From IMG/VR virus record IMGVR_UViG_3300022743_000031, positions 1 to 20,450 of that record: DNA of 20,450 nucleotides; one strand, written 5' to 3'. The stretch comes from a virus. Positions 2,000 through 14,327 of this stretch are shown one piece after another. Under the pieces are notes generated by a model. That model saw only the letters and a program-made list of their open reading frames with translations. It was not told the DNA's origin and ran no database searches. The position numbers and the translations under genes are program-made. Every line of letters begins with the position of its first letter. Within the stretch, counting starts at the first letter, position 1.

Positions 2000-3034
2000 A
2001 TGGCAACCTTGTGTTTTGACTACGATTACGTTTTATATGCCGCTGGGTTCGTCGGGGAGACTCGTTCGATCCGAGTAGTCCACAGGGCATCAGGAGACGA
2101 ATACGAGTTTGCGAACAGGACGGCTTTTTTCGGTCACTGGAAAACTAAGTCTGGCGGTTGGCTGTCAGAGTATAATGCAGCCAAGAGCGAAGGCAAAAGG
2201 CGTGCAGTAGACGAGTTTGACATTACAGATGTACAGACTCCTGAACCATTGTCCAACTGCCTGCACACGGCTAAACGTATTATCGAGGGAATTGTAGAGA
2301 CTTTAGGAGCGGATTCGTACTATGGATACTCTGGCAGGGGTAAGACTTTTAGAGAAGATGTCTCGACTGTCATTCAGTACAAAGGGCAGAGAAAAGACTC
2401 TCTAAGACCCGTACACTTAGATGCTCTAAGGGAGTACCTTGTAAAGCACCACTCTTGTACAGTCGTAGAGACTATTGAAGCCGACGATGCGTGCTCAATT
2501 GACAGTTACACGGCATATCAGAAATGGAAAAAATCTCGAAAGGATTCTGACAAGCTTGTTCTCGTTGCAGTAGATAAAGACGCTCTGGGTACAGCCTGTC
2601 ACTTGTATAATCCGAACGAGCCAGAAAAAGGCATAGACTCTTACGAAGGCTTTGGCAGGCTGTACCTAAACGAAAAAGGTGCAGTCAAAGGCCGTGGCAG
2701 AATGTGGCTCTATCAACAGGTTCTGAACGGGGATGATGCTGACAACTACTTTGCCAACTCTGCTAGTGACATGAGTTGGGGCGAGAAGTCAGCGTATGCT
2801 CTCTTGAAGGACTGCAAGAACGACAAGGAAGCCTTTGAGGCGCTTGTAAAGGGCTACAAGACCCTCTACCCTCAACCTAAGACAATTACGGGCTGGAGAG
2901 GCGATACGCTCGACATTACGTGGCTAACGATGCTGCAAGAGAACTTCACGCTGGCGCACATGCTGCGCCACAAGGAAGACAAGGTAGACGTTGTTGCTAC
3001 GATGAAAAAGCTCGGCGTGGAGTTTGAAGACTGA
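2000..3034 (+). CDS. 5'-3' exonuclease, FEN/T7 gp6-like (PIN-like nuclease fold)
   Basis: A 344-residue protein, ATG after aaaaggaaaatga. The order of acidic motifs is that of the FEN-type 5' nuclease family (T7 gp6, T4 RNase H, T5 D15): an N-terminal Asp pair (FDYDY, residues 6-10), a basic YKGQRK segment (127-132), EADD (160-163), VDKD (191-194) and GDDADNY (244-250), which together bind two metal ions. Length agrees with phage exonucleases (~300 residues). Probable role: removing RNA primers and degrading DNA from 5' ends during replication and recombination. It overlaps the HNH gene by one base (TGATG), so the two are translationally coupled. It was recognised by motif order, not by a search; overall family confidence is high. 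Confidence 0.82.
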   Translation: MATLCFDYDYVLYAAGFVGETRSIRVVHRASGDEYEFANRTAFFGHWKTKSGGWLSEYNAAKSEGKRRAVDEFDITDVQTPEPLSNCLHTAKRIIEGIVETLGADSYYGYSGRGKTFREDVSTVIQYKGQRKDSLRPVHLDALREYLVKHHSCTVVETIEADDACSIDSYTAYQKWKKSRKDSDKLVLVAVDKDALGTACHLYNPNEPEKGIDSYEGFGRLYLNEKGAVKGRGRMWLYQQVLNGDDADNYFANSASDMSWGEKSAYALLKDCKNDKEAFEALVKGYKTLYPQPKTITGWRGDTLDITWLTMLQENFTLAHMLRHKEDKVDVVATMKKLGVEFED

Positions 3035-3585
3035 TGAGCAAGACCTTTCAACAACCTTGGGAGGTCTTCCCAGACATCTGGAAGACTAAGGCCGCGTTCT
3101 TTTCGTACCTGCGCGGCGGTCTGCGGATGATTTGGTCAAGATACCCTGCAAAGCTGGAATGGAAGAAAAAGCAGTTGACACCTGAGCGACCTCCGGGTTA
3201 CACTGGGCGTGGCAAGAGCTTTGGGAAGTGCCACTACTGTGGGTGCATGTTCACCGGGTCTGCTCTCGAAGTTGACCACGTAGAGCAGGTGGGTTCGTGC
3301 AACTCGTGGGAAACTGCTGGGCACTTCATGGAAAATCTGCTAGACTGTAATGACAACTGGGTGCTGGCTTGTAAGCCGTGTCACAAAGTAAAATCTCACG
3401 CAGAAAAGACTGGCGCCTCATTTGAAGAGGCCGCAATCCAGAAGCGAGTGATTGCCATGACGAAGAACAGCAAAGATTTTGTTGTTGACTTCTGCAAGAA
3501 AAATGGTTATAATGCCGACCAACTCACCAACTCCGAAAAGCGCAAAGCCGCGTTGACGGAAATTTTCACAAAGGAGCTTCAATGA
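3034..3585 (+). CDS. HNH endonuclease with zinc-binding cysteines
   Basis: 183 residues. Core: CHYC (66-69), EVDHV with the metal-binding D81-H82, an asparagine-containing CNDNWVLAC segment (105-113), and CKPCHK (113-118) followed by KSHAEKTG. Four cysteines in two pairs would hold a structural zinc and the DH/N/H residues would form the beta-beta-alpha-metal active site. Unlike the AP2-type HEGs elsewhere in this window, it has no AP2 or NUMOD module, and it is tightly packed between the exonuclease (TGATG overlap) and the next gene (ATGA overlap). It could be a housekeeping phage nuclease (junction resolving or DNA processing) or a free-standing HEG; the tight coupling favours the former. 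A consensus promoter is embedded in its 3' part (3485-3513). Confidence 0.8.
   Translation: MSKTFQQPWEVFPDIWKTKAAFFSYLRGGLRMIWSRYPAKLEWKKKQLTPERPPGYTGRGKSFGKCHYCGCMFTGSALEVDHVEQVGSCNSWETAGHFMENLLDCNDNWVLACKPCHKVKSHAEKTGASFEEAAIQKRVIAMTKNSKDFVVDFCKKNGYNADQLTNSEKRKAALTEIFTKELQ
3485..3513 (+). promoter_or_regulatory. Sigma-70-type promoter candidate inside the HNH gene
   Basis: TTGACT (3485-3490), a 17-base spacer, then TATAAT (3508-3513), 11 of 12 consensus positions. A start point near 3520 would lie about 60 bases upstream of the small gene at 3582 and would drive it, the phosphoesterase and the genes beyond. It lies within coding sequence, so chance is possible, but spacing and hexamers are close to ideal for host RNA polymerase. 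Confidence 0.5.
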
Positions 3586-6300: not shown

Positions 6301-7101
6301 ATGCTTAGAGCAATTCGTAAACGAAGTGGGGAAGTTGTCTGGTTTGATGCAAACAAATTAAATCGCTGGGGAGAATGGGCCGCTGGGATCGGAGTAGACT
6401 GGAGCGGAGTCGCCCTTGAAGCTACCCGCAAGTGTTTTGACGGCTGCACAACTGATGATCTTCACAAGGCATTGATTGCTGCTTGCGTTGACCGAGAGAC
6501 TACCGCACACCTGAAAATGGCTGGGCGCCTGTATATCGGCGCAATCTACAAGCAAGCCTTCGGCGATTGGCGTGAAATTCCGAGTGTGCAGGATATGTAC
6601 CGCAAGATGTCCAAACTCGGCCTATGGGCAGAAATGGACTACGCGGAAGAAGAGCTGAGCTACTGCAACGAGTTCATCAACCACGAACTCGACATGCAGG
6701 CCACGCTGACGGAAACCAAGCAGATCATCGACAAGTACGCTATCTCAGACCGGGTTGACAAGAAGGTCTATGAAACTCCGCAGTTTGTGTATATGCGGAT
6801 GGCCCTCGGCAACATGGAGAAGATGCCGAAAGATCGACGTATGCAGGACGTGAAGAAGCTGTACACCTTCCTGTCACAGAAGAAGATCAATCCGCCTACG
6901 CCGTTCAGCCTAAACCTTGGGACTGAGAAGAAGCAGTACGCTTCGTGTTGCGTCTTTACAACAGAGGACTCCGCTTCGAGCCTTGCTGCTGCTGACCACA
7001 TCGCCTACATGATGACCTGCGCATCGGCTGGCATTGGTGGGCACATCAAGACCCGTAGCAAGGGCGATAAGGTCCGCCAGGGCGCTATTCAGCACATGGG
7101 T
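6301..7101 (+). CDS. nrdA: Ribonucleotide reductase class Ia large subunit NrdA, exon 1
   Basis: Exon 1 encodes residues 1-267 (ATG after taaaggagtaaa). It holds an N-terminal region with a short ATP-cone-like start (RAIRKRSGEVVWFDANKL), then the helical domain leading to the catalytic barrel. QYASCCVF at 212-219 holds the equivalent of E. coli C225 (likely C217), which takes part in substrate reduction. The exon ends in GAIQHMG at T7101. Group I introns split the gene into three exons (6301-7101, 7921-8397, 8645-9637); joined, they give 756 residues, close to the 761 of E. coli NrdA. The enzyme reduces ribonucleoside diphosphates to deoxy forms together with NrdB. Without splicing, translation would stop five codons into intron 1. 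Confidence 0.95.
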
Positions 7102-7920
7102 AAATATTTGCCCCTGTAAGCCGGAAGGTTTACAGAAAACCTATTGAATTGCTGGAAGGCTAAGGCGCAAGCTATGCTAATCAGCAGGGAAGGCTTCAAG
7201 TACGACCTTTACGAAAGGAGGTTGTATGCGAAAATACTGGACGACAGAAGAGATAGAGCTACTGACAGAGTTTGCCTCGTGTGGCAGGTCATTTATTGAA
7301 CTTGCTACAATGCTTGGGAGAACACTGCAAAGCGTGCAGCATAAAGCTAGCAAGCTGTCAATTACGTTTGTACGAAAACCTGCCAAAACACTGTACGGTG
7401 AAGTGTGGGCGAAGTCTTACGTAGATGATGTTCTAGTCTCAAATCATGGAAGATTCAAGCGGGCCAGCACCAACTCTCTCCTAAGCGGAACTGTTCTTCA
7501 AGACGGCTACGTTCAAGTAGAGGTTTCCAGAAGTGGAGGCGCGGTCAAATGCTATGCACACCGGCTTGTTGCAGAGGCGTTCGTGGAGAACCCAGACAAC
7601 AAGCCAGAGGTCAACCATAAGAATAGGAACAAAGCTGACAACTCGGCAGAAAACCTAGAATGGGTGACAAGAAGTGAGAACATGATTCACGCCCATGCTA
7701 CGGGATTTATCCGTAGGTAGGCTATTGTCGTACTTGAAGCAACCTTCAGAGACTATCGAAAGCACGCGAAAGCGGAAGCGAGTAGAGTAGGAGAGCGAAG
7801 CCGATGCGCCTCCGAAGTGGTAGGCACCTGTTTACAGGTGATGATATAGTCCGATCCTACGCGAAAGCGTATGGCAGCACGTTATGGTGCGGGGCACACT
7901 TGCAAAGTGTCCGAACTTTG
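7102..7920 (+). mobile_element. Group I intron 1 in nrdA, carrying an HNH homing endonuclease
   Basis: 819 bases. The exon ends in T7101 and the intron in G7920, as expected for group I. Joining them restores QHMG-KLPYY in frame. An internal guide gcccctgt (7110-7117) pairs with exon acatgggt with the usual U.G at the splice site, and ttt (7107-7109) pairs with exon aaa (7921-7923) as P10. Core elements are visible: a P-like aattgctggaa near 7145, an R-like ttcagagactatc (7745-7757) and an S-like gatgatatagtcc (7839-7852); the last two form P7. The ORF 7226-7720 sits in a peripheral loop. Confidence 0.9.
7226..7720 (+). CDS. Intron-encoded HNH homing endonuclease (NUMOD4 type)
   Basis: 164 residues inside intron 1, with the ribosome binding site gaaaggaggttgtATG. 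Domains: an N-terminal helix-turn-helix or Myb-like segment (residues 4-46: YWTTEEIELLTEFASCG, SFIELATMLGRTLQSVQHKA); a NUMOD4-like stretch (58-80: GEVWAKSYVDDVLVSNHGRF); and an HNH core (110-150: YAHRLVAEAFV, then VNHKNRNKADNSAENLEWVT) in which N130-H131 stands where D-H is usual and N139/N143 follow. Such enzymes cut intronless nrdA alleles to spread the intron. It looks intact. The N-terminal HTH is an extra DNA-binding module compared with minimal NUMOD4-HNH proteins. Confidence 0.9.
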   Translation: MRKYWTTEEIELLTEFASCGRSFIELATMLGRTLQSVQHKASKLSITFVRKPAKTLYGEVWAKSYVDDVLVSNHGRFKRASTNSLLSGTVLQDGYVQVEVSRSGGAVKCYAHRLVAEAFVENPDNKPEVNHKNRNKADNSAENLEWVTRSENMIHAHATGFIRR

Positions 7921-8397
7921 AAACTTCCATACTACAAGGTCCAGCAAGCGGCTGTATCGGCCAATTTGCAGGCTTCCCGTGGTGGTGCTAACACGATGCA
8001 CTTCAACGTCATGGACCCGGAGATTTTCGACCTGCTGAAGTTGAAGAACGTCCAGACCATTGCCGACAAGCGTATCAAGGACATTGACTACTCTGTAGGG
8101 TACAATGACGAGTTCGCCCGACGTGTAGCTGCGAACGAGTCTTGGATGCTGGTCAGTTACGGTGACGCCCCAGAGTTGTACGAGGCCATGTATGACGGTG
8201 ACTCGAAGAAGTTTGTCAAGCTCTACTCTGAGGTAGAGGTAGACGAGAGCATTCAGAAGCAGTTCGTGAGCGCAAGAAAAATTGCCATCACGTTCTTGAC
8301 TGAAGCTGTTGAAACTGGCAGACTATACGAGCACAACACAAGCGAGCTGAATCGTCACACGCCTTTCAAGGACACTATCTACTCTAGCAATTTGTGT
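7921..8397 (+). CDS. nrdA: NrdA, exon 2
   Basis: Residues 268-426 of NrdA, from KLPYYKVQQAA to SNLC. It contains the RGGANTMHFNVMDPEI stretch and the DYSVGYNDEF region typical of class Ia large subunits (E. coli RGGAATLFYPMWHLEV and MDYGVQINKLM). The last codon is the cysteine aligned with E. coli C439, the residue that becomes the thiyl radical. The exon has 159 complete codons. The open frame upstream (from about 7804) is intron sequence and is not part of the protein. Confidence 0.93.
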
Positions 8398-8644
8398 TAA
8401 ATCTAGCACCCTTGCACGGTGACGTGCATTGAACAACCCATTGAACTCAGGGGAAACGTAGGAAACGTAATCCTGATCGAAGCCTATTTATAGGAACGAG
8501 CAACGACTATCCCGAAAGGGAGTACACCCAAGCGGGTGGAAGCGGTGGGCATCTCTAAAGGAGATGATGATATAGTCTGGTCTGCATAGGGATATGCAGC
8601 AGCCGAAAGGCGGGAAGTGATTAGCGACCACTTCTGAACTTACG
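8398..8644 (+). mobile_element. Group I intron 2 in nrdA, small and ORF-less
   Basis: 247 bases. Exon 2 ends in T8397 and the intron in G8644; joining gives SNLC-QEIGLPT, the conserved class I RNR active-site motif, in frame. Both core P7 strands are visible: an R-like gcaacgactatccc (8500-8512) and an S-like gatgatatagtctg (8565-8578), the latter sharing 12 leading bases with intron 1. A GCAC that can pair with the last four exon bases (GUGU, U.G at the site) occurs at 8406 and 8414. No ORF of useful length lies inside, so mobility would need an enzyme in trans. Confidence 0.88.
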
Positions 8645-9637
8645 CAAGAAATCGGCCTTCCGACTCTGGGCTACAACTCAGTGTATGACTTGTACCGGCC
8701 TGTGCCGGCTGCGTTCCAAGTTATCGAAGACATGGGCGAAATTGGCCTGTGCTCTCTTGCAGCTATTGCCGCAGGGCTAGTCAGTGACGAAGAGTATGAA
8801 GAGGTTGCCTATTATGCTTCGTTGATGATTGATAACGTCATCGACATCATGGAATACCCGTTCCCGCAGTTGAAAGTCACAGCTCAGGCTCGCCGCAGCA
8901 TTGGAGTAGGCATCACAAACCTCGCCTTTGCGATGGCCAAGGAAGGGCTGAAGTACAGTACGCTGGAAGGTAAGCAGTACATTTTCAGGCTTGCAGAGCG
9001 CCACAGCTATTACCTGCACAAGGCCTCGCTGCGGCTTGCCAAAGAGCGCGGCATCTGCGAATGGGCTGACCGAACGAAGTATTCTGAAGGCTGGCTTCCC
9101 ATTGACACGGCGAACAAGGAAATCCAGCGTCTGATTGGACAACCTCTGCTGTGTGACTGGGAAGCACTCCGCTCTGAAATGAAGGCTATTGGCGGACTCC
9201 GCTTCTCGGTACACGAAGCGCATATGCCATGCGAGTCCAGCAGCGTTGCTGGTGGGCACACGAACGGCCTGTACCCGATCCGTGCATACAAGGTTGTCAA
9301 GACATCTGGAACAAACAAAAACTTGTTCATTGCTCCAGAACTTGATACACTTGCATCGAGCTATGAGCTTGCGTGGGAGATTCCTACGAACGACATGATC
9401 GACGTGTATGCTATTGTCCAGTGCTTCACTGGTCAGGCTATCTCTGCCGACCTGTACATCAAGTACGACAAGGAAGGCAAACGAGAGCTGTCGGCGAAGA
9501 CGCTGTTGCAAGAGTGGCTGCGACGTGTTAAACTTGGCATGAAGACGAAATACTACACTAATTCTTCCACAGGTGTAGAGTTGGACGCTTCTCCGAAAGA
9601 AGAAGAAGCCCCGGTGTGTGACAGTTGCTCGCTTTGA
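8645..9637 (+). CDS. nrdA: NrdA, exon 3
   Basis: Residues 427-756. It begins QEIGLPT, so E428 matches E. coli E441. GLCSL contains C462 (as in E. coli), the partner in the active-site disulfide. KYY at 728-730 gives the two tyrosines of the radical path (E. coli Y730/Y731). The protein ends in VCDSCSL, whose C-x2-C (751, 754) is the swinging-arm redox pair re-reduced by glutaredoxin or thioredoxin; a glutaredoxin gene lies in the same module at 12542. The last ~26 codons, from TNSSTGV, are duplicated in diverged form at the end of the HEG at 9685. Confidence 0.95.
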   Translation, partial: QEIGLPTLGYNSVYDLYRPVPAAFQVIEDMGEIGLCSLAAIAAGLVSDEEYEEVAYYASLMIDNVIDIMEYPFPQLKVTAQARRSIGVGITNLAFAMAKEGLKYSTLEGKQYIFRLAERHSYYLHKASLRLAKERGICEWADRTKYSEGWLPIDTANKEIQRLIGQPLLCDWEALRSEMKAIGGLRFSVHEAHMPCESSSVAGGHTNGLYPIRAYKVVKTSGTNKNLFIAPELDTLASSYELAWEIPTNDMIDVYAIVQCFTGQAISADLYIKYDKEGKRELSAKTLLQEWLRRVKLGMKTKYYTNSSTGVELDASPKEEEAPVCDSCSL

Positions 9638-9640
9638 CGG

Positions 9641-9658
9641 AAAGGGCTTCGGCCCTTT
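9641..9658 (+). other. UUCG-tetraloop hairpin after nrdA
   Basis: aaagggc (9641-9647), ttcg, gcccttt (9652-9658): a 7-bp perfect stem with a C(UUCG)G loop, one of the most stable RNA tetraloops. No T tract follows, so it is more likely an mRNA 3'-end stabiliser or weak pause site than a full terminator. Confidence 0.6.
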
Positions 9659-9684
9659 AACAGTTAAGAAAGGACAAAGGACAA

Positions 9685-10311
9685 GTGCCGAAGGCAAAGG
9701 ACACATCACACATTGACTGGACCACTCACTTCTACTACGATGAGATCAGTCCTTCTAAGTTGCGCTGGGCGAGGAATGCCGGCCAAAGGGCACCGATTGG
9801 CAGTGTTGCCGGGTGCCTGAACAAAAGTTCACCCTACTACCGAGTCAGACTTGATGGGCAGACCTATCAAGTCCAGCGCATCATATGGGAGCTGCACTTC
9901 GATGGACTGAAGCCTGAAGATGTTGTTGACCACGAAGACGGTAATAGCTTGAACAATTTAATCGGCAATCTTCGGAAAGTGACTACTGAAGTCAATACAC
10001 GTAACAGGCGGGCACGTACAGACAACTCATCTGGTGTCCAAGGTGTATCACGTACATCAAACGGTAACGGCTCTTTCTACTGGACCGCTTGCTGGTGCGA
10101 ATTGAACGGTAAGGCGTGCAGGAAAGCCTTTTCAGTCAAGAAGTACGGTGATGAAAAAGCATTCAACCTAGCTTGCGATTTCCGCGCTACAGTGATAGAC
10201 TCCCTCAATGCAAACGGTGCAGGATACACCGACAGACATACCAACTCTTCGACTGGTGTCGATCTTCTGATCGAAGAGCCAGAGCCTGTTTGCGATAGCT
10301 GTTCACTGTGA
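9685..10311 (+). CDS. HNH-AP2 homing endonuclease ending in a fused NrdA C-terminal tail
   Basis: 208 residues from a GTG after aaaggacaaaggacaa. Segments: N-terminal HFYYDEISPSKLRW (15-28); a GSVAG strand region; an HNH core at 80-100 (VVDHEDGNSLNNLIGNLRKVT, D82-H83 with N90/N95); an AP2-like DNA-binding region at about 113-166 (NSSGVQGVSR, YWTACW, KKYGDEKAFNLAC); and the family end GAGYTDRH (178-185). From residue 186 the protein is not HEG: it reads TNSSTGV, an acidic stretch and PVCDSCSL, 23 residues resembling the end of the NrdA gene just upstream. I infer insertion at the 3' end of an nrdA allele, leaving the recipient's last codons fused to the HEG. The enzyme looks intact; whether the tail has a function is unknown. 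Confidence 0.88.
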   Translation: MPKAKDTSHIDWTTHFYYDEISPSKLRWARNAGQRAPIGSVAGCLNKSSPYYRVRLDGQTYQVQRIIWELHFDGLKPEDVVDHEDGNSLNNLIGNLRKVTTEVNTRNRRARTDNSSGVQGVSRTSNGNGSFYWTACWCELNGKACRKAFSVKKYGDEKAFNLACDFRATVIDSLNANGAGYTDRHTNSSTGVDLLIEEPEPVCDSCSL

Positions 10312-10317
10312 TACACT

Positions 10318-10335
10318 GCGGGGCGAAAGCCCCGC
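10318..10335 (+). other. GNRA-loop hairpin upstream of the 10354 gene
   Basis: gcggggc (10318-10324), loop gaaa, gccccgc (10329-10335): a perfect 7-bp GC stem with a GAAA tetraloop, 6 bases after the HEG stop and just before the next ribosome binding site (caaggag). No T tract, so probably a structure separating or stabilising messages. Confidence 0.55.
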
Positions 10336-10353
10336 CCATTCAAGGAGAAACCA

Positions 10354-10578
10354 ATGCCTGTGACTATTCACCGAAACGACTCCCGCGTTCGCACTTACGA
10401 AATTGAAGACCTGCAAGACGGGGACGCATACGAGTGCGACGGAGACATCTACATCATAAACAAGCACCACGGGGCCGGTGTTGCCGGATTCTCAATCGAC
10501 GGCAATAGCATCCTCTGGGAAGACAATCTCCATAGCGCCAAGCTGATCCCTATCAACCTCGAAATCACCGTCTGCTAA
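10354..10578 (+). CDS. Unknown 74-residue protein between nrdA and nrdB
   Basis: ATG after caaggagaaacca. The sequence has alternating strands and turns (YEIEDLQDGDAYECDGDIYIIN, then AGFSIDGNSILWEDN) and an acidic character, suggesting a small beta protein; no family is recognised. Its stop overlaps the start of the following HEG (TAATG), and that HEG's first codons are nrdB-like. Before the HEG insertion, this gene would therefore have been directly followed by nrdB. Confidence 0.7.
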   Translation: MPVTIHRNDSRVRTYEIEDLQDGDAYECDGDIYIINKHHGAGVAGFSIDGNSILWEDNLHSAKLIPINLEITVC

Positions 10579-11177
10579 TGACTGTATTCAACGCACAAAA
10601 TACTGAATGGAAGAGCCACTTCTACTACGATGAGACGAGTCCGACTTGCCTGCGTTGGGCGAGGGAAGTCCGCAGAGGAAAGGAGCTAAGAATTCTATTC
10701 AAAGTTTTTGGTGATGTGGCAGGTAGCGTCTCGAAGGGCTACTCTCAGGTCAGTTTAAGTGGGCGCAATTACAAGGCAGCCAGAGTTGTGTGGGAACTCC
10801 ACAACGGCCCGATAGAGCTTGGGTTGGACATTGACCACATAGATGGGGACATACATAACAACCGTATCGGAAATCTCCGAGCGGTGAAAACCGTCGTAAA
10901 CACCCGCAACTGTAGGCTGCGCATAGATAACAAGTCTGGTACAGCCGGTATCTCCAGAGTAGTTAAAAAAGGATATACATACTGGCGCGTAGTTTGGTAT
11001 TCTATAGAATGTAAGCGACATGAGTTATACTTCTCTGCGCTAAAGCTTGGAGAGTGTTGGGCAGAAGCCTCTGCAACTAAATTTGCACTCGATAAGAAAA
11101 TAGCCTTGAATGCTCAAGGTGCAGGGTACACAAATCGTCACGGAAAGGAAGTAAATGCCTGTCTTCAATTGCAATAA
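10578..11177 (+). CDS. HNH-AP2 homing endonuclease starting with captured NrdB codons
   Basis: 199 residues. Residues 1-11 (MTVFNAQNTEW) match the NrdB N-terminus (MPVFNCNNTEW) in 8 of 11 positions, with mostly silent or conservative base changes; from residue 14 the HEG family begins (HFYYDETSPTCLRW). Next come GDVAG (45-49), an HNH core (84-105: DIDHIDGDIHNNRIGNLRAVK, D86-H87), an AP2-like region (about 116-170) and the family end GAGYTNRHGK (181-190). The start codon is that of the original nrdB, coupled to the upstream gene by TAATG. The last 23 bases overlap nrdB. The codons for HGKE read ggaaaggaa and form the ribosome binding site of nrdB. The gene looks intact and the enzyme active. 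Confidence 0.88.
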   Translation: MTVFNAQNTEWKSHFYYDETSPTCLRWAREVRRGKELRILFKVFGDVAGSVSKGYSQVSLSGRNYKAARVVWELHNGPIELGLDIDHIDGDIHNNRIGNLRAVKTVVNTRNCRLRIDNKSGTAGISRVVKKGYTYWRVVWYSIECKRHELYFSALKLGECWAEASATKFALDKKIALNAQGAGYTNRHGKEVNACLQLQ

Positions 11178-12270
11178 TACTGAGTGGGTTAGCGGAGAGG
11201 GTACGCTGTTCCTCGGGCAACAGCCTGGGCTGCACGACACTATCAACACGCGGTTCCCAGAGATTTCAAAACTTGCATTGCGGCAGGTATCTCAACGCTG
11301 GGTATTTGATGAGTTTAACCACGAGCAGTCCAGGCTCGACCTACTGAACTGCCCTGAATCAGTGTACAAAGTAATGCTGATGAACTTGGCGTACCAGTGG
11401 CACGCCGACAGTGTAGCAAGCCGGGCTATCGCGCCACTGTTTGCACCGTTTGTGACAAACTCTGAACTATGGGAAGCACTGTTAGAAAATACCAACATGG
11501 AGATTACCCACGCTAAGACGTACAGTGAAATCGTTCGGCAGTGCGTTGCCGACCCGAGTGAAGTTTTCAAGATGGTAATGGAGAACGAAAAGACCATCGC
11601 CCGATCTTCCACGGTCAACAAGGTGTTCGATGGCCTTGCTGTTATTGGCGCCCTGCGCACGCTGAAAGAAAATGGCGTCAATCAGTTTGCTGTCGGAGAG
11701 CAGACGCAGTACAATACGGCGTTCATGGCCGTTGTCGCTTTGTACTGCCTTGAGCGAATTCAGTTCATGGCGTCATTTGCTGCAACCTTTGCTATTGTCG
11801 AGCAAGGCTACTTCCAGAGCATTGGCAAAGCTGTCCAGAAGATCATGCTTGACGAAATTGCAGTGCATGCAGCACTTGATGCCGAAGTGCTGAAGGTCGA
11901 ACTTTCTACCGAACGTGGCTTGATCGCTCGAAAAGAGTGTGGTAAACTGATCCACATGATGCTACAAGAGGTTGTTGACCAAGAGCTTCAGTGGTCAGAA
12001 TACCTGTTCAGCGAAGGCCGAGCTATCGTTGGACTGAATCCTGCGCTGCTGAAAGACTGGGTACGCTACAATGCTCAGCCTGTGTTCGACGCCTTGGGCT
12101 ATGATTTGGACTGGGATCGCATCACTGTCAACCCGCTTCCGTGGATGTTATCATGGATAAATATCGATAAAACCCAGAATGCCAACCAGGAGGCAGATGG
12201 GAACAATTACGCACTTAATGTCGTTAAAAACGACATTGGAATCAACGAGGTGTTCGATTTTGAGTTGTGA
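11155..12270 (+). CDS. nrdB: Ribonucleotide reductase class Ia small subunit NrdB
   Basis: 371 residues, E. coli NrdB being 376. The diiron ligands can be placed: D85 (HADSVASR), E116 and H119 (MEITH), E200 (CLERIQF), E234 and a histidine at 238. The radical tyrosine is Y123, four after H119 as in E. coli Y122. The distance E200-E234 equals that of E. coli E204-E238, but the following histidine comes four residues later (EIAVH) rather than three (EALH). The protein generates the tyrosyl radical used by NrdA. The start is the ATG at 11155, with its ribosome binding site inside the upstream HEG. The 3' end overlaps a TTG that starts the decayed HEG downstream. Confidence 0.94.
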   Translation: MPVFNCNNTEWVSGEGTLFLGQQPGLHDTINTRFPEISKLALRQVSQRWVFDEFNHEQSRLDLLNCPESVYKVMLMNLAYQWHADSVASRAIAPLFAPFVTNSELWEALLENTNMEITHAKTYSEIVRQCVADPSEVFKMVMENEKTIARSSTVNKVFDGLAVIGALRTLKENGVNQFAVGEQTQYNTAFMAVVALYCLERIQFMASFAATFAIVEQGYFQSIGKAVQKIMLDEIAVHAALDAEVLKVELSTERGLIARKECGKLIHMMLQEVVDQELQWSEYLFSEGRAIVGLNPALLKDWVRYNAQPVFDALGYDLDWDRITVNPLPWMLSWINIDKTQNANQEADGNNYALNVVKNDIGINEVFDFEL

Positions 12271-12545
12271 GTTTAATGAGTATTTCTACTACGATGAGAG
12301 TAGTCCGTCATGCTTGCGGTGGAGAATAGAAGTACGTTGTGGTAATGGGTATAATCGTGCTAAAACAGCAGTTGGCGACGTAGCTGGAACGATTCGTGTA
12401 TGTACAAACGGTAGACGGTACAGGGAAGTTCGGTTACGACGAAGGCTACCGCCTTGCATGCGAACACCGCGAAGCAATGATTCGACAACTAAACCTGCAA
12501 GGTGCAGGATACTCTCAACGACATGGAAAGGAACTGATACAATGA
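12260..12545 (+). pseudogene. Internally deleted, frameshifted HNH-AP2 homing endonuclease
   Basis: From a TTG at 12260, inside the end of nrdB (gagg 10 bases upstream as possible ribosome binding site), one frame reads CEFNEYFYYDESSPSCLRW, then GDVAGTIR and GRRYREVRL, matching the first ~60 residues of the HEGs at 9685 and 10578. From about 12429 a different frame reads FGYDEGYRLACEHREAM, then GAGYSQRHGKELIQ, matching their last ~35. The HNH core and AP2 region (about 100 codons) are gone and the two halves are out of frame, so no enzyme can be made. The HGKE codons (ggaaaggaa, 12525-12533) are kept and act as the ribosome binding site of the glutaredoxin gene, whose ATG overlaps the remnant's stop. 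Confidence 0.85.
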
Positions 12546-12766
12546 TTTTTGTCTACAGCAAGGGCGCCTGCCCTCAGTGCGACAAACTGAAAGCCGAGCT
12601 GAAGATTCACGGAACTGAGTACACTGAGGTCCGCGTCGATCAAGACTCAGACGCAATGAAATTTGTCCGAGAAGCAGGACATCGCAGCGTTCCGCAGGTA
12701 TACTCTGCGTATTGCGGTGGCGAATACATCGGTCAACGCATGGTTGACGTTGCCCGATTCATCTGA
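12542..12766 (+). CDS. Glutaredoxin/NrdH-like redox protein
   Basis: 74 residues. The start is the ATG at 12542; the frame continues upstream but only into the decayed HEG. Thioredoxin-fold features of a mini-glutaredoxin: first strand FVYSKGAC, active site C10-P-Q-C13, SVP with the cis-proline at 51, then a glycine pair and GEYIG. It would re-reduce the C-x2-C tail of NrdA (C751/C754) and so belongs functionally with nrdA and nrdB. Length and position in an RNR operon fit either NrdH or phage glutaredoxin (T4 NrdC type); the CPQC site alone does not decide. Its ribosome binding site comes from the HEG remnant. Confidence 0.88.
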   Translation: MIFVYSKGACPQCDKLKAELKIHGTEYTEVRVDQDSDAMKFVREAGHRSVPQVYSAYCGGEYIGQRMVDVARFI

Positions 12767-12776
12767 AAGGAGAACC

Positions 12777-12980
12777 ATGTTCAAGTCGATTGCAGCTTTT
12801 CTTACTTCCCTAGGCGCGTTTGGAGTCCTGGCTTTCGTAGTCATTTGGATTCTGGCAATCGTTGGCTGGTTTATGAACGTCTACAAGCTGTTTGTGCATC
12901 TGCCGCTGTTCGACATCGAAACCATCGTCCGATTGATCGGACTCTTTCCGTCAGCGGGTGCAATCGTCGGATGGTTCTGA
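12777..12980 (+). CDS. Small membrane protein, two hydrophobic segments
   Basis: 67 residues, ATG after gaaaggagaacc; the longer frame upstream overlaps glutaredoxin. A long hydrophobic segment spans residues about 6-32 (AAFLTSLGAFGVLAF, VVIWILAIVG) and a shorter one 50-67 (LIGLFPSAGAIVGWF). No lysis or transport motif is recognised. It is coupled by TGATG to another small membrane protein, so the two may work as a pair in the inner membrane; superinfection exclusion or a lysis accessory role would be guesses. Confidence 0.7.
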   Translation: MFKSIAAFLTSLGAFGVLAFVVIWILAIVGWFMNVYKLFVHLPLFDIETIVRLIGLFPSAGAIVGWF

Positions 12981-13748: not shown

Positions 13749-14327
13749 TTGGTTGAAGACTTCAAAAACAATCGCGGGATGTGGACCTATCAGCCAAGAA
13801 TTAACGGGAAGCAAGTGTTCACTGTCGGAGGCCAGTATTACAATGCGATGGCTAATAGGTGCAAACCAGGAGGATACGTTCAGAAGAACCACCACACTTA
13901 CATTGGCTGCACTACTACTTTCAAGTCTTGCCACGACTTTATTGAATGGGCAAGGAACCAAATTGGGTATGGATCAGGGCAATTAGACAAAGATATTCTG
14001 TTAAAAGGAAATAAAGTGTACTGCCCAGAGCTTTGCGTGTTTGTGCCAAAGGCAGTTAACGTGCTTTTTACAAAACATGATGCCGCGAGAGGTAACTGGC
14101 CGATTGGCGTGAGCTGGGATAAAGAAAAAGAGAAGTTTCAGGCAGGTTTCAGAGTCAAAGGAAAGCGGAAACACCTAGGCCGCTTCTCAACTCCAGAGGC
14201 AGCTTTCGCAGCTTATAAAACTGCCAAAGAAGCCGGATGTAACCGGCTCGCAGTAGAATATAAGCCACAAATCGACCCTCGTGTATACCAAGCCTTGCTT
14301 AACTACACTGTTGAAATTGACGACTAA
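13749..14327 (+). CDS. Intact VEDFKN-family HNH-like/AP2 homing endonuclease
   Basis: 192 residues from a TTG preceded by gaaggagagaaaatag. Regions: N-terminal VEDFKNNRGMWTY and TVGGQYYNAMANRC (1-38), where the C-terminal part begins the nuclease domain; YIGCTTTF..CHDFIEWA (51-68); LDKDILLKGNKVYCP..CVFVPKAVN (79-104), the position of the HNH core in this phage family although it reads D-K-D instead of the classical D-H; AP2-like GVSWDKEKEKFQAGF to AAFAAYKTAKEAG (120-163); and the end RVYQALLNYTVEIDD. Proteins of this layout are known in phages as HNH/AP2 endonucleases, probably mobile. Two decayed relatives occur at 1784 and 6190. It is the last + strand gene before the convergent terminators. 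Confidence 0.8.
   Translation: MVEDFKNNRGMWTYQPRINGKQVFTVGGQYYNAMANRCKPGGYVQKNHHTYIGCTTTFKSCHDFIEWARNQIGYGSGQLDKDILLKGNKVYCPELCVFVPKAVNVLFTKHDAARGNWPIGVSWDKEKEKFQAGFRVKGKRKHLGRFSTPEAAFAAYKTAKEAGCNRLAVEYKPQIDPRVYQALLNYTVEIDD

Follow-up and report, generated by a model that had tools for sequence, protein, structure and literature searches.

The window analysed here is the whole 20,450 bp stretch of DNA, a metagenome contig from an uncultured virus record that is known from assembled sequence alone. Its RNR operon carries five mobile insertions (two introns and three homing endonuclease genes, HEGs), and a close relative, the IMG/VR contig IMGVR_UViG_3300035180_000125 (hereafter L001), carries none. 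Aligning nrdA with its uninterrupted counterpart in L001 gave the exon limits. The features of the operon are listed below.

6301–9637, + strand: nrdA, class Ia large subunit (756 aa), with exons at about 6301–7104, 7924–8397 and 8645–9637.
7105–7923, + strand: group I intron 1 of nrdA, with an HNH_3 ORF at 7226–7720 (Rfam RF00028 and PF13392).
8398–8644, + strand: group I intron 2 of nrdA, without an ORF (Rfam RF00028, 81.8 bits, match 8388–8599).
9546–9637, + strand: foreign (donor) nrdA 3′ end, beginning where identity to L001 drops at 9546.
9638–9684, + strand: spacer without a counterpart in L001, containing the hairpin AAAGGGCTTCGGCCCTTT and a Shine-Dalgarno-like GAAAGGA for HEG1.
9685–10311, + strand: HEG1, an HNH_3 and AP2 homing endonuclease with its core extending to 10239 (PF13392, PF00847, phrog_99, 1u3e).
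10240–10311, + strand: displaced native nrdA 3′ end, TNSSTGVDLLIEEPEPVCDSCSL plus stop, 90% identical to the L001 nrdA tail.
10312–10343, + strand: native post-nrdA hairpin, GCGGGGCGAAAGCCCCGC, with the same sequence in L001.
10354–10578, + strand: native small ORF of 74 aa (91 aa in the L001 homologue), without a Pfam or PHROGs match.
10578–10616, + strand: displaced native nrdB 5′ end, MTVFNAQNTEWKS, which is the N-terminus of HEG2; 97% identical to the L001 nrdB start.
10578–11177, + strand: HEG2, an HNH_3 (phrog_99) endonuclease with the native nrdB start at its N-terminus (Pfam, PHROGs and alignment).
11155–11517, + strand: foreign nrdB 5′ part, 72% identical to L001, with a change-point at 11518.
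11518–12146, + strand: native nrdB body, 98.7% identical to L001.
12147–12270, + strand: foreign nrdB 3′ end, 69% identical to L001 over 12147–12220, with a change-point at 12147.
About 12179/12260–12545, + strand: HEG3, a decayed HEG of the same family that keeps core positions 1–47 and 142–174.
12542–12766, + strand: native glutaredoxin gene (PF00462), 97% identical to L001 over 12526–12780.

The match of intron 1 to RF00028 (39.4 bits, E 2e-8, span 7092–7873) falls under the gathering score. Long in-frame, intein-like insertions are found in related phages, in nrdB of L017 (3160–5241) and in nrdA of L003 (1676–4885), so this type of RNR operon is targeted by several kinds of mobile element. 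Elsewhere in the window, the ORFs at 1784–1987 and 13749–14327 have both ends in common (VEDFKN..GxW..TVGGxY(F/Y)NxM..RCK and EYK.QIDPRVY.ALL(D/N)YTVEIDD), and the latter holds about 125 more residues in the middle of the protein, including an AP2-like stretch. The difference between the two is a HEG-like domain inserted or deleted internally.

HEG1 runs from a GTG start at 9685 to a stop codon at 10309–10311 and encodes 208 aa. Searches against Pfam place an AP2 domain (PF00847, 39.8 bits) after an HNH_3 domain (PF13392, 34.1 bits), both over the cutoff, and the best PHROGs assignment is phrog_99 (HNH endonuclease, E 8.5e-36). Among solved structures, the homing endonuclease I-HmuI (1u3e) comes closest by both profile and fold, the fold match being weak (TM-score 0.34–0.39). 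Residues D82, H83 and N104 are invariant in the family alignment, and they are spaced exactly as are D74, H75 and N96, which form the catalytic set of I-HmuI (PMC12724721); the catalytic core of HEG1 therefore appears intact from its sequence. No group I intron was matched around HEG1 in Rfam, the sole gathering-level match in the window being that at 8388–8599. The gene has its own start and the nrdA stop precedes it, and HEG1 is thus a free-standing HEG located outside any self-splicing element.

The C-terminus of NrdA, TNSSTGVELDASPKEEEAPVCDSCSL, is encoded at 9557–9637. After the HEG1 family domain ends with GAGYTDRH at 10239, the reading frame continues in phase with TNSSTGVDLLIEEPEPVCDSCSL, so that the NrdA tail occurs twice and its second copy is carried in frame on HEG1, as a sequence-only reading of this DNA had described; the gap between the two genes, given there as 48 bases, is 47 nt (9638–9684). 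Aligned as proteins, the two tails score 78, compared with a maximum of 41 among 5000 shuffles, a similarity far beyond chance. Their DNA is 68% identical, with a 9-nt length difference included. Nearly all family members end at or just after YTxRH, both among eight aligned sequences and in a second family alignment. As other members stop at GAGYTxRH(GK), the extra 23 residues of HEG1 are those of NrdA and not those of a HEG.

This arrangement was sought in other genomes. A tblastn search of phage GenBank sequences returned 1756 HEG relatives and, among the matches listed, all but one end at or before HEG1 residue 200. The exception, Ep020, was considered as a tail carrier (match to residue 203) and rejected, as it ends in EGYTDRHGRKE and the longer match is a chance extension. 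No second HEG with an NrdA tail was found in IMG/VR scans with NrdA, HEG1, NrdB and the HEG2 core, or with a degenerate DNA pattern for the GYTxRHTNSSTG junction. The sequence-only reading had named HEG relatives with a CDSC tail away from nrdA as a finding that would count against it, and none were found in IMG/VR or phage GenBank.

Which of the two tails is native can be read from L001, which was retrieved by a search with nrdA. This contig has the same gene order, with an uninterrupted nrdA (753 aa), nrdB (368 aa) and glutaredoxin but no introns and no HEGs, and being without all of the insertions it serves as the empty site. A further contig (L014) overlaps from nrdB onward, is near-identical there, and is without HEG2 and HEG3. 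In L001, the NrdA C-terminus is INSSTGVDLMIEEPEPVCDSCSL, followed by the hairpin GCGGGGCGAAAGCCCCGC. The tail fused to HEG1 is 90% identical to this L001 tail, and the sequence is the same through the hairpin that follows. The present nrdA tail has 62.5% identity to L001, the stretch 9546–9637 has no blastn match in L001, and neither the spacer nor the hairpin behind the tail has a counterpart there. Since the HEG1-fused tail and its downstream DNA match L001 and the current tail does not, the fused tail is native and the tail on nrdA is foreign. L001 is thus the kind of allele that the sequence-only reading had proposed to look for, an uninterrupted nrdA whose tail resembles the fused copy.

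Within nrdA itself, identity to L001 is 94% over 9305–9545 and falls to 62% from 9546. Taken alone, this change-point is marginal (gain 7.9, shuffle maximum 7.7) because only about 35 aligned bases lie past the break, and the argument for nrdA is consequently carried by the tail comparison. A donor phage with the foreign tail and HEG1 was not found by the IMG/VR scans or the junction pattern, leaving the empty-site relative as the basis for the direction of transfer. The nrdA introns were also considered as the origin of the pattern and were rejected, as the exons flanking both of them are not foreign.

A mirror image of the HEG1 arrangement, overlooked in the earlier reading, lies close by at the start of nrdB. 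HEG2 starts with MTVFNAQNTEWKS and nrdB of the window starts with MPVFNCNNTEWVS; these align with a score of 49 against a maximum of 39 in 20,000 shuffles. The first 39 bases of HEG2 (13 codons) account for the 97% identity to the nrdB start of L001. The rest of nrdB is a mosaic when compared with L001, with identities by segment of 72%, 98.7% and 69% and breaks near 11518 and 12147, for which the change-point log-likelihood gains are 57.8 (one break) and 38.1 (second break), compared with a maximum of 10.3 in 300 shuffles. The foreign 5′ part adjoins HEG2 and the foreign 3′ part adjoins HEG3, each foreign tract sitting on the HEG-facing side of the gene. The edge of HEG2 has a short shared string, which reads TGACTGGA at the equivalent position of HEG1 and TGAATGGA in nrdB; this is compatible with microhomology, but from the sequence it is only a hint.

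HEG3 retains only the two ends of the core, has an internal deletion and a frame change, and lies in two frames, thus providing a snapshot of HEG decay beside the intact HEG1 and HEG2. Its right junction lies just past the position of the native nrdB stop. Each of the three HEGs is thus flanked on one side by a foreign gene terminus, while its opposite edge is joined directly to native DNA. For HEG1 and HEG2, this native piece is still coding and in frame with the HEG, forming the C-terminus of the former and the N-terminus of the latter.

In order to evaluate whether HEGs at other genes carry native termini, an in-frame terminus test with cross-locus null pairs was applied to 164, and later 193, HEG ORFs of related loci. 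It superseded a crude scan for similarity between upstream and downstream sequence, which gave false positives from low-complexity out-of-frame translations. A single-protein scan of genome contigs yielded three loci only. The HEGs of the window and one independent tail-fibre series, which repeats the pattern, came out at the top of the in-frame test. In L121–L124, an HNH HEG carries at its own start roughly the first 14–20 codons of a tail-fibre gene (for instance, MPKNKVSEWSATAS), and the fibre gene behind it starts with a different version (MAKNKVSEYSSTAANNT); the native codons kept number 14, 14, about 20 and about 19. With L137 and L138 representing the uninterrupted tail-fibre gene, the captured starts are 79–88% identical to L138 over 42 bases in three of the four, while in L124 both copies are 67% identical to L138 and the comparison does not discriminate between them. 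L125 has an out-of-frame scar, and L126 and L127 have none.

In L121 and L122, the captured N-terminus, the HEG and the replacement N-terminus form a common block that is 90% identical over about 708 bp, with unrelated DNA upstream and downstream. Across L121–L127 (HEG near 3001–3550), the block of HEG and fibre N-terminal domain is common, in contrast to the remainder of the fibre and the genes upstream, which vary. HNH HEGs at fibre starts may help to shuffle tail fibres.

Two weaker candidates were also recovered. In L143 (2800–3366), the HEG and the portal-like gene that follows it have similar starts (MPEMQDADLCKVV and MAEMAPVDVCKIV), and in L080 (2833–3450) a HEG has a tail-fibre-like start unlike that of the next fibre gene. 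The in-frame test gave no convincing terminus capture for the HEGs of T5-like SP01, one of which lies between nrdA and nrdB, or for added prophage loci. Most HEGs of this class examined have no terminus capture, which is therefore not universal.

The best explanation for the locus, and one that we hold with high confidence, is that HEG1, a free-standing HNH and AP2 endonuclease gene, inserted at the nrdA 3′ end through one-sided homing. The comparison with L001 shows that the recipient's own nrdA 3′ end (10240–10311) has been displaced and serves HEG1 as an in-frame C-terminus, and that nrdA ends in a foreign yet complete tail followed by a foreign spacer. HEG2 is the mirror case at the nrdB 5′ end, with the native nrdB start as its N-terminus and an nrdB that begins with foreign sequence, while HEG3 came in beside the foreign nrdB 3′ segment and decayed afterwards. 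We infer that HEG1 cut a HEG-free allele near the codons at the YY–TNSS junction, whereupon the broken end on the nrdA side would have used homology to copy the donor tail, spacer and HEG, and the HEG core would have been joined directly at its far edge to the other broken end. This one-sided join may have occurred in this phage or in an ancestor that passed on the fused form. The in-frame join gives HEG1 the stop and HEG2 the start that they require, which is presumably why the frame was kept, and the imported terminus leaves the host protein whole.

The sequence-only reading had proposed that the HEG arrived with a donor nrdA 3′ end by co-conversion and left the last codons of the recipient on the HEG. 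The arrival and the origin of the fused codons are borne out by the match to the L001 tail, but ordinary co-conversion alone does not suffice: between fusion-free alleles it cannot create the fusion, and the event must therefore have been one-sided at some point.

Among the alternatives, the one that survives best is that the fused form is itself mobile, HEG1 and both nrdA termini having pre-existed in a donor and moved by ordinary two-sided homing. The block shared by the L121 and L122 fibre loci, from captured to replacement N-terminus, is what such a unit would look like and, being common to otherwise unrelated contigs, it shows that fused units can travel later. At nrdA, however, the fused tail and the DNA that follows look local to the lineage (90% to L001), and the junctions vary among the tail-fibre relatives in the number of codons kept; we regard this alternative as possible but unlikely for HEG1.

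A second alternative concerns the fused tail rather than its origin. The sequence-only reading had pointed to a redox-active C-x2-C arm on the endonuclease and raised the question of whether it is only a scar or interacts with glutaredoxin. If the arm were functional, a glutaredoxin or the RNR complex would bind or reduce it and link the endonuclease to redox state or RNR. The CDSCSL motif is intact, a glutaredoxin gene lies in the same operon, and five of the seven differences between the fused tail and that of L001 are synonymous, although the insertion may be too recent for decay. In the AlphaFold2 model of HEG1, block means in the core are mostly 82–96, lower at residues 100–120, whereas the last 26 residues have pLDDT <50 and are predicted to be disordered. 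The arm is absent from the other HEG family members examined, which end at GAGYTxRH, and HEG2 captured an unrelated native terminus equally well. The redox proposal thus found no support and a functional arm appears quite improbable; given the model and the absence from relatives, a scar with no redox function is the most likely interpretation of the arm.

A simple tandem duplication, in which a single genome duplicated its nrdA 3′ end and the HEG lies between the copies, would account for adjacent tails in the same orientation. The copies nevertheless differ in length and are only 68% alike, whereas the distal copy and the L001 tail share 90% identity, hairpin included; a fused tail nearer to its orthologue than to its neighbour effectively excludes this origin, and the earlier judgement that the tails are not a recent tandem copy holds. 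The spacer behind the proximal copy, without an L001 counterpart, and the separate foreign nrdB tracts beside HEG2 and HEG3 also argue against a duplication, which we consider extremely improbable. Equally improbable is an assembly chimera of two co-occurring phages, conceivable for an uncultured virus record but at odds with the in-frame junctions, with the repetition of the same rule at three places in the window as well as in unrelated contigs, and with a gene order that is otherwise that of L001.

One-sided homing with capture of a native terminus can be compared with several known systems. I-HmuI and the HNH_3/AP2 endonucleases share the catalytic core and residue spacing of HEG1; I-HmuI is intron-encoded and has no host-derived tail, whereas HEG1 is free-standing. 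The closest parallels are in fungal mitochondria. According to a later account, a mobile ORF with an inserted C-terminus was described at atp6 of Allomyces macrogynus (Paquin et al. 1994, cited in PMC3630166), and mitochondrial mobile ORFs with inserted C-termini occur at atp6, atp9, cox2 and nad3 of Glomus, where the atp6 element carries a LAGLIDADG ORF and the native atp6 C-terminus is 91.2% identical to relatives, compared with 63.5% between the two copies (PMC3630166). The common design is a HEG that enters an essential gene at its 3′ end and supplies a foreign C-terminus that leaves the gene whole, with the native C-terminus now lying downstream of the HEG. At nrdA and HEG1, a foreign in-frame C-terminus is likewise followed by the HEG, and the displaced tail is closest to the HEG-free relative (90%). 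Unlike the fungal elements, which are mitochondrial and belong to other endonuclease families, the insertions described here are in a phage operon, HEG1 is of the HNH and AP2 type, and gene starts are captured too. HEG1 therefore works like the fungal elements but is not a member of them, its endonuclease lineage being different.

Within phages, mobE of T4 (between nrdA and nrdB) and mobE of Aeh1 (which splits nrdA) are likewise free-standing HNH HEGs of RNR operons with co-conversion of flanks, but they abut or split nrdA, and the portions of these reports consulted do not describe a duplicated nrdA terminus or a fusion to host residues (PMC2988022, PMC3653736). HEG islands resemble the present locus in having essential phage genes flanked by HEGs, which mark the boundaries of recombination; fusions of HEGs with displaced native termini are not mentioned in the parts of that report consulted (PMC10448857). 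A search of the open-licence PubMed Central literature found no description in phages of HEGs fused to displaced termini. The design at gene ends is thus known from fungal mitochondria, and what is new here is its occurrence in another endonuclease lineage together with the capture of gene starts.

How selfish endonucleases without an intron settle in or beside essential genes without killing the host is poorly documented in phages, and the uninterrupted relative makes one such insertion legible base by base. The solution adopted by these HEGs is to import a spare gene end and to reuse the displaced one as their own start or stop. This explains odd host-derived tails on phage HNH proteins that could otherwise be read as functional fusions, and it leaves a signature that can be scanned for in sequence data. 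We give roughly even odds to the more general reading that terminus-capture homing is a recurrent insertion route of phage HNH HEGs, in which a HEG edge is joined in frame to a displaced native start or end that supplies translation signals, a foreign terminus is delivered to the gene, and the ends of essential genes (RNR subunits, tail-fibre N-terminal domains and portal) are repeatedly remodelled. The locus also links HEG homing to the mosaic ends of RNR and tail-fibre genes, and the mirror-image cases at other genes suggest a recurring reshaping of phage gene ends by such HEGs.
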